A stretch of 41,728 nt of DNA from Propionibacteriaceae bacterium (GTDB lineage Bacteria > Actinomycetota > Actinomycetes > Propionibacteriales > Propionibacteriaceae), in NCBI GenBank assembly GCA_031272805.1, contig JAISTC010000154.1, positions 1-41,728 on the forward strand, written 5' to 3'. Made by a program: the position numbers and the translations under genes. Shown in pieces: positions 3,608 to 16,380 of the stretch. Under the pieces are notes generated by a model. The model ran no database searches and was not told the DNA's origin. It saw only the letters and a list, made by a program, of their open reading frames with translations. The number at the start of each line of letters is the position of its first letter. The first letter of the stretch is position 1.

Positions 3608-3696
3608 CTGTCATCCTGAGCGCAGCGAAGGATCTCGGTGGCGGAGAGATCCTTCGCTGCGCTCAGGATGACAGGATGCTCCGCTCAGGATGACAG
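3608..3696. repeat. Dispersed palindromic repeat, full copy with tail repeat
   Basis: A perfect 29-bp inverted repeat (3608-3636 and 3646-3674, 9-nt loop) is built on CTGAGCGCAGCGAAGGATCT. It is followed by one extra partial arm, CCGCTCAGGATGACAG (3681-3696). Transcribed from either strand it would fold into a very stable hairpin. It lies between divergent padR and rarA. It reads through in frame with rarA, which explains the artificially long ORF starting at 3638. Related copies occur at 5194, 6583 and 15810. Confidence 0.9.
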
Positions 3697-5193: not shown

Positions 5194-5222
5194 CTGTCAT
5201 CCTGAGCGCAGCGAAGGATCTT
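5194..5222. repeat. Dispersed palindromic repeat, single arm
   Basis: A single arm (CTGTCATCCTGAGCGCAGCG followed by AAGGATCTT) of the repeat seen complete at 3608-3674. The bases that follow (GGCGGGGGATCGTTGGT) resemble those after the copy at 6583 (GGCAGGGGACCGTGGTG), so the repeated unit is longer than the hairpin arm. The rest of the gap to 5403 holds no convincing gene. On the minus strand a short open tail ends near 5257 (VIEDEAGFESWPAED), possibly a gene remnant. An exact 16-mer, CTTGACGTGGTTGACA (5368-5383), recurs inside the next gene at 5506-5521. Confidence 0.85.
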
Positions 5223-5931: not shown

Positions 5932-6578
5932 GCGCGCCGACTGGGGCCCCGGCCCTGCCATCTCCGGGCGAGGGGCTCAGCCTCGCCGGGTTCCCCCGAG
6001 CTACCCTGGCCAAGGGCACCCGCGTGTACCGGTGCCACCGGTCCGGCCGTGCTCATTGGTGGTTCGCCAGCCGTGACCCAGCGGGGCCTGGCGGCCGCTT
6101 CGATCTGGCCTCACCGCGGGGAACGCACTACGTGGCGAGCGACCTGGAGACCGCCGTGCGAGAGCGGTTGCGCGACCGGGCGAGCGGAGCGGGCCACGTG
6201 CCTCAGCCGTTCGCTGCGAGCTTTGCGGTGACCGTGACGACGGTGGCCAAGGACTGGTCCTGCGCCCACGTCGACGCCAGAGGCGCGGCCCGTTTCGGCG
6301 TGACCCGCGAAATGGCCACGTTGCCGCCCGCCCAGTACGGCGTCACGCAGGCGTGGGCGGAGCGGTTCGCCGCCACGGGGCATGACGGCATCCGCTATGG
6401 CGCGCGGTTCACCCCGGGCCGGTCCAACGCCTGGGCGCTGTTCGGCCAGGCGGGCGACGCCGAGCGGCCCGTGCCCGCGGTGGTCGAGACGGTCAGCGGC
6501 CCCGACGCCTGCCGCCGGATCGGACTCGCCGTGTTGACGACCCCCTATCGCGAGTCCGTGCGCGTGATCCCCGGCTGA
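5928..6578 (+). CDS. RES-domain toxin
   Basis: This is a 216-residue RES-domain protein. RES toxins deplete cellular NAD+ through an ADP-ribosyltransferase-like fold. The conserved positions are visible: an early Arg in RVYRCHRSGRAHWWF (about residues 32-46), Tyr and Glu in GTHYVASDLETAVRERL (about 65-81), and a Ser in YGARFTPGRSNAWALFG (about 158-174). The ATG overlaps the antitoxin stop (ATGA). Gene order, with the antitoxin first, is standard for this class. The first 25 residues (PTGAPALPSPGEGLSL) are low complexity and may be a flexible leader. No key residue appears lost, so the toxin is probably intact. NAD+ degradation is taken from the family, not shown here. Confidence 0.88.
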   Translation: MSAPTGAPALPSPGEGLSLAGFPRATLAKGTRVYRCHRSGRAHWWFASRDPAGPGGRFDLASPRGTHYVASDLETAVRERLRDRASGAGHVPQPFAASFAVTVTTVAKDWSCAHVDARGAARFGVTREMATLPPAQYGVTQAWAERFAATGHDGIRYGARFTPGRSNAWALFGQAGDAERPVPAVVETVSGPDACRRIGLAVLTTPYRESVRVIPG

Positions 6579-6582
6579 ACCA

Positions 6583-6603
6583 CTGAGCGCAGCGAAGGAT
6601 CTC
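6583..6603. repeat. Dispersed palindromic repeat, truncated arm
   Basis: CTGAGCGCAGCGAAGGATCT plus C, the right two-thirds of one arm of the repeat, lies immediately after the RES toxin stop. It has the same orientation as the copy at 5194, so the RES/Xre pair is bracketed by two direct copies about 1.39 kb apart. Confidence 0.85.
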
Positions 6604-6614
6604 GGCAGGGGACC

Positions 6615-11048: not shown

Positions 11049-11076
11049 CGACCAGCCCGGCCAAACCCCGGCAAAG

Positions 11077-11164
11077 ATCCCGGCTGACGCCGGGATGACA
11101 GGGGAGCGGGGCTGACAGAGGAAGCGCTCAGGACGACAGAACACGCGCCCAGGACGACAGACAT
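11077..11164. repeat. Hairpin plus decayed tail repeats upstream of alaS
   Basis: A perfect hairpin, ATCCCGGC-TGAC-GCCGGGAT (11077-11096), is followed by degenerate copies of the tail motif CGCTCAGGATGACAG: GCTGACAGAGG, CGCTCAGGACGACAG and CGCCCAGGACGACAG. The same tail motif follows the full palindromic repeats near rarA and inside aroE, so this is probably an older member of the family. It lies in the alaS leader, where it could also act as an attenuator hairpin. No T-box signature was recognised. Confidence 0.65.
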
Positions 11165-11174
11165 AAGGAAGATG

Positions 11175-15475: not shown

Positions 15476-16380
15476 CCGAGGGGGCCCGCCGCTGCGCGGT
15501 CATCGGCTCGCCCATCGCCCACTCGCTGTCGCCCGTCCTCCACCGCGCCGCCTACCAGTGGCTCGGCCTGGACTGGCAGTACGACCGCCACGAGGTCACG
15601 GTGGCGGCCCTGCCGGCGTTCGTCGCCGGATTGGACGCCTCGTGGCGCGGGCTCTCCTGCACGATGCCGTTGAAAGAGGCGATCGTGGAGTTGGGCGTCC
15701 CGGACGCGACAGTCGAGGACCTGGGCGTGGCCAACACCGTGATCTTCGACGGCGCGCCCGGCGACCGGGTCAGCACCAGGATCAGAAACACCGACGTAGA
15801 GGGCCTGCTTGTCATCCTGAGCGCAGCGAAGGATCTCTCCTCTGATCAGGCAATCGGCCCGACCGGTCGACCATCAGGGCAAGAGATCCTTCGCTGCGCT
15901 CAGGATGACAGAGAAGGCGCTCAGGATGGCAGAGGCGGTGCCCTGGTCCTGGGCACGGGCGCGACCGCCACGTCCGCTGTGTATGCGCTCTCGCGCGTGG
16001 GCGTGACGGACGTGCAGGTCGCGGGCAGAAACCGGACCGCGCTGGCCCGCCTGGCCGAGAAGGCCGAACGCTGGGGCATGACCGTGACGGCGCAGACGCT
16101 CGACGGGCCCTGGGCGCCCGCCGGCCTCGCCATCTCCACGGTCCCGGCCGCCGTGGCCGCCGGGCTGGCGGACCGCGTGACGACGGCCGCCGCCGCGGTC
16201 GTCGACGTCCTCTACGACCCCTGGCCCACCCCCCTGACCGCCGCCGCCCAGGCCGCCGGCCGCCCGACGTTCACGGGCCGCGACCTCCTCGCCCACCAGG
16301 CCGTCGGCCAACTCCAGCTCATGACCGGCCGGACGGTCCCGGCCGACGTCCTGCTCGCCGCCCTGGCGGCCGAGCGCTAG
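15472..16380 (+). CDS. aroE: Shikimate dehydrogenase carrying an in-frame palindromic-repeat insertion
   Basis: The enzyme reduces 3-dehydroshikimate to shikimate with NADPH. The protein has 302 residues, about 25-30 longer than usual. The substrate domain starts [20 protein letters not shown]. The catalytic Lys lies in [10 protein letters not shown] (about residues 62-71), and NTDVEGLL closes the first domain. The NADP fold has [15 protein letters not shown] and the clamp [10 protein letters not shown]. Between NTDVEGLL and VLGTGAT lies an insert, [11 protein letters not shown] through EILRCAQDD, that is the translation of the dispersed palindromic repeat. It adds no stop and no frameshift. 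The start is GTG 15472, overlapping the mltG stop; the ORF track lists a longer shadow start. The other shikimate genes follow. The insert sits in an interdomain linker, so activity is probably kept (inference). Confidence 0.93.
15810..15932. repeat. Dispersed palindromic repeat inside aroE
   Basis: A perfect 29-bp inverted repeat (15810-15838 and 15882-15910) surrounds 43 bp of unique sequence. It is followed by the tail motif GCGCTCAGGATGGCAG (15917-15932). The arms are the same as in the copy near rarA. The element is wholly translated as part of aroE, comparable in principle to the in-gene palindromic elements known from Rickettsia. Confidence 0.9.

Follow-up and report, generated by a model that had tools for sequence, protein, structure and literature searches.

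The aroE gene of this member of the Propionibacteriaceae, which encodes shikimate dehydrogenase, contains a pair of inverted REP arms that is read through in frame, and sequence comparison gives good support to the view that this is a real and recent in-frame insertion of a REP dimer into a single-copy core enzyme gene. Taken as a whole, the explanation that the pair recently entered a loop of AroE, that the gene was kept open and that the insert is carried as a tolerated passenger appears to us very probable. The element was studied within the window, a stretch of 41,728 nucleotides from a draft genome of 239 contigs, and its parts are listed in Table 1.

Table 1. Parts of the element in aroE and other genes that carry the REP in frame
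Feature	Position in the window	Strand	Remark
aroE, shikimate dehydrogenase, 302 aa	15472..16380	+	only aroE copy detected in the genome
Left REP arm, TGTC tag outward	15810..15836	+	encodes VILSAAKDL, end of the preceding helix
Spacer between the arms, 47 nt	15837..15883	.	not common to other copies listed
Right REP arm, reverse orientation, tag outward	15884..15910	-	encodes ILRCAQDD
Tag-side partial copy (half-unit), "tail motif"	15911..15934	-	encodes about REGAQDGR
Net inserted coding stretch, AroE residues 120-153	15829..15930	+	relative to M. tuberculosis AroE
Loci of in-frame REP			L094 uvrC; L124 recD; L103 trpG/pabA; L116 cydD-cydC; L057 helicase; L090 NRPS

The repeat within the aroE reading frame

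The gene starts at a GTG that overlaps the stop codon of mltG and is followed by aroC, and its frame stays open, without a stop, across the whole repeat element. The inverted arms (29 nt, 15810-15838 versus 15882-15910) are 100% complementary, with 15810-15836 and 15884-15910 being perfect inverted copies of TGTCATCCTGAGCGCAGCGAAGGATCT, and a partial extra copy of the arm lies at 15917-15934, 21 nt from the right arm. An earlier note on this DNA had described a 29-bp inverted repeat in aroE, translated as ILSAAKDL...EILRCAQDD without stop or frameshift and followed by a tail motif; it had the coordinates and the frame right, and its tail motif is the partial arm copy. The arm occurs five times in the window compared with none in 100 shuffles. 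Elsewhere in the window the repeat occurs as a dimer (3609-3673), as a single arm (5195-5221) and as a degenerate arm (6575-6612).

AroE was aligned with its counterparts in 29 relatives, and the linker was measured between the motif NTDVxG and the strand ALVLGxGATA. It comprises 44 residues here versus 11-15 in 27 of the 29 relatives and 19 in another, which is a net gain of about 29-33 residues over the usual length, close to the 25-30 residues that had been proposed to be added between the two domains. The alignment with the solved AroE of M. tuberculosis breaks at one point, where 34 extra residues (120-153) fall between residues 116 and 117 of the mycobacterial enzyme. None of the relatives has a linker of the same length that lacks the repeat, the case named in the earlier note as speaking against an insertion: 28 of 29 linkers are shorter, and the longer one, at the same site in the nearest relative (G010; L003, G010:C124), has 85 residues of unrelated sequence. 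The idea that this linker represents a second repeat insertion was rejected, as it is present in a single copy in the G010 genome and is unrelated to the REP. When the whole element and the partial copy are removed from AroE, about three linker residues are left, fewer than in the relatives, so the event was probably a replacement of some native codons combined with an insertion rather than a clean insertion. The first arm supplies the native helix end, with Val-Ile-Leu at the hydrophobic-Leu position of the relatives, and in the structural model helix 107-121 contains the repeat-coded residues 114-121.

The modelling that had been suggested as a check yielded an AlphaFold model (30 sequences) with a mean pLDDT of 91 and values of mostly 94-98 in the core, for which the top structural matches in the PDB are mycobacterial shikimate dehydrogenases. 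In the middle of the insert the pLDDT falls to about 48-55, and the insert is predicted to be mostly disordered. This confident core bears on the possibility that aroE is a decaying pseudogene, inactivated by an insertion too recent for stops to have appeared. The unmutated arms do point to a recent insertion, and AroE scores under the cut-offs of the NCBIfam aroE models, but the alignment with relatives shows no variation at S18, S20, K68, N88, T107, D108 or the G161/G163/A164 motif, the gene order with mltG and aroC is intact, and the insert preserves the open frame and sits in a loop that is variable in the nearest relative too. Moreover, a search of the draft genome (88.8% complete) found no second aroE, such as the functional copy that the earlier note envisaged beside a pseudogene. 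Decay is thus very unlikely, and the sequence and the model suggest that AroE is translated and enzymatically active.

Form and spread of the REP family

The repeat is dispersed, as had been claimed: about 170 arms (≤3 mismatches) were found in the genome versus none for the reversed control. We examined 102 elements with 153 arms (loci L036-L124 and the window), of which 50 are dimers with the tags out and the tails in, one has the opposite arrangement and 51 are single arms. The TGTC tag is present in 152 of 153 arms and the pattern TGTC-AT...AT-CT in nearly all of them, the arm tail being CT followed by C and variable bases. The arms are almost invariant except at position 15 (C in 98, A in 38, G in 17), which is the N of a GNA triloop; as a single strand, the arm folds into 5 bp, a GA/GA 2x2 loop, 2 bp and a GCA or GAA triloop, with a folding energy no better than that of dinucleotide shuffles. 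Dimer spacers are mostly 11-20 nt long, and some are common to several copies.

One to three added half-units, mostly 20-22 nt apart, stand on the tag side of 59 of the 153 arms (e.g., L081, L047, L103), and similar half-units adjoin 21 of 137 arms in other organisms. They form tandem arrays that repeat about every 21 nt, which beside intragenic elements are read as arrays of GAQDDRE-type heptapeptides. Their spacing is a multiple of three in 20 of 20 cases beside intragenic elements versus 34 of 62 elsewhere (Fisher p = 7e-5), a bias rejected as independent evidence since it is largely circular, the intragenic set having been picked by its open frame. Across the REP itself, four of the six reading frames are stop-free.

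This genome contains 152 REP cores versus a single one in 57 relatives (in G011), and the same dimer with short spacers occurs in records named Chloroflexi/Sphaerobacter, Alpha- and Gammaproteobacteria, Burkholderiales, Pirellulales, other Planctomycetes and Omnitrophota. From these counts and this distribution, the repeat is best described as a cross-phylum REP that has recently multiplied in this lineage. A search for the arm sequence or its peptide in the main text of papers returned nothing relevant.

Among the 88 elements at a sufficient distance from a contig end, nine are intragenic, as judged by gene-like codon use and the same open frame on both sides. Wider screens and family matches located in-frame copies in uvrC, recD, a DEAD/DSHCT helicase, trpG/pabA and genes for FHA proteins, at two sites each in a fused cydD-cydC and in an aBig_2 surface protein, and in an NRPS condensation region and a DUF975/CmpB protein; in purF, a lutB-like gene and a nuoJ-like gene the copies lie close to the C-terminus. 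Several of the conserved genes among these are DNA repair genes. UvrC of most relatives aligns in two pieces around the REP site, and the relatives' TrpG/PabA matches start only past the element, which is preceded by the first ~22 TrpG/PabA residues. The insertion into aroE described in the earlier note stands with two corrections, namely that REP dimers of this kind had been reported within genes before and that aroE is nothing special in this genome, where about a dozen further genes harbour the repeat. A second REP-like family (ATCCCGGC...GCCGGGATGAC, with VIPAQAGI/VIPAEAGI peptides) coexists with the first (window 11070-11165, L116, L090, L040), and its copies are also found within the same genes as the first REP and upstream of alaS.

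The recurrence of the same peptides in the linkers of several unrelated proteins of this genome, together with the completion of the native helix by the first arm, could be taken to mean that the insert confers a selected new property on AroE (regulation or an interaction surface) or that REP peptides are kept as useful linkers. However, a single DNA repeat yields these peptides, its frame differing from gene to gene (VILSAAKDL versus HPERSEGS), the AroE insert is predicted to be disordered and its sequence showed no sign of selection. Neutral tolerance accounts for it, and we give selection even less credence than decay. Least probable of all is an assembly or binning artefact that joined two REP copies inside aroE, as might be feared in a draft of many contigs where repeats favour misassembly, because the two halves of aroE share one contig and one reading frame, with the usual distances to mltG and aroC, a chance join would not restore one gene, and the same pattern returns in uvrC, recD and trpG/pabA.

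Probable mobility and the proposed course of the insertion

Copy number and distribution suggest that the REP is mobile. The genome has four Y1 transposase genes (L032-L035), and this REP (core, ≤4 mismatches) was not found in the fetched flanks of any of them; that it flanks a Y1 transposase was accordingly rejected, the Y1 flanks carrying other inverted repeats. Three of the four genes are flanked by long inverted repeats of their own, e.g., GATCGGGGACTGTCCCCACGG. In a scan of 49 dimers, target-site duplications were no more frequent than in shuffled flanks, which is what HUH transposition would lead one to expect. Each single-stranded arm could form a hairpin of the kind recognised by Y1/HUH (RAYT-like) transposases, and movement by such an enzyme, probably in trans, would be the likeliest route.

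In the tolerated insertion that we favour, the REP family would have multiplied recently in this genome, and a head-to-head pair of TGTC-tagged REP hairpins would have entered the AroE loop that joins helix 107-121 to the first NADP-domain strand after the species split from the sampled relatives of its genus. Since the length was in frame, the frame used has no stop and the site is a flexible surface loop, aroE would have remained open and AroE would have acquired ~30 mostly disordered residues, which may persist as a passenger with no useful function of their own. A broader scenario, which we offer as speculative and rather doubtful, is that a cross-phylum REP newly invaded one species of the genus and is spreading together with tag-side ~21-bp (seven-codon) half-unit arrays, and that its stop-free frames and this period make it unusually tolerable in genes, so that it continually supplies core genes with in-frame peptide inserts.

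The aroE element is an unusually clean case: the core gene is single-copy, the insertion is apparently recent and carries no mutations, and it can be set against many insert-free orthologues. The case adds an apparent actinobacterium, which has more than a dozen candidate genes, to the hosts of in-frame REP insertion; the cost of such inserts would be directly measurable there, and the burst in one species, together with the same REP in other phyla, would make the mobiliser a tractable question.

Relation to known palindromic elements

The frame is open through the repeat and the repeat is absent from orthologues, as in an intragenic in-frame palindromic insertion. The closest described system is the superfamily of CGTC-tagged REPs, which, according to Di Nocera et al. 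2013 (PMC3733652), often carry TGTC tags, form mostly head-to-head dimers and have no dedicated transposase. Some of these dimers lie inside open frames and lengthen the protein by 20-30 residues, and the genes hit in this way are frequently ones for DNA repair (UvrABC, RecBCD). Four features described there are shared by our repeat: an unpaired tag at one end (CGTC or TGTC/CCTC; here TGTC), a stem that starts with complementary AT, a predominance of head-to-head over rare tail-to-tail pairs (50 versus 1 here) and the lack of a flanking transposase gene, in our case within the sequence fetched around the four Y1 genes. In contrast, CGTC-tagged REPs are described with a stem of 8-9 bp and a loop of 4-5 nt, where ours has 5 bp, GA/GA and 2 bp with a loop of 3 nt, and their three-base tail is mostly CCA, which ours is not. 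As stem and loop length differ, we do not file this REP in the families CGTC-1 to CGTC-4 of that paper; judged by sequence, it seems to work like CGTC REPs without fitting their four families. The host differs from those of the intragenic CGTC/GTAG REP dimers in apparently being an actinobacterium, as gene content and the nearest structures suggest, the word Actinobacteria being absent from the main text of PMC3733652; the available part of that paper neither names aroE as an affected gene nor mentions tag-side ~21-bp half-unit arrays.

The parallel with Rickettsia palindromic elements drawn in the earlier note is apt, as RPE-4 and RPE-6 are classed with the CGTC-tagged REPs in PMC3733652 and the arm here is TGTC-tagged. 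Like the RPEs, the aroE element is a palindromic repeat tolerated in frame in a conserved gene. One such Rickettsia enzyme, Gmk, is translated and active with its RPE, according to a review (PMC2229807); the RPEs covered by that review are longer (105-146 bp) and belong to another host, and the likeness is drawn from published descriptions. With REPINs, the REP doublets mobilised by RAYTs, the element shares an inverted pair with the tags outside, a short spacer, a high copy number and no target duplication, but it differs from the RAYT-associated REPIN of the GTAG type in its TGTC tag and in the absence of this REP from the flanks of all four Y1 genes. The insertion in aroE is a new and clear example of a known phenomenon, with an atypical stem and half-unit arrays, and not a new class.
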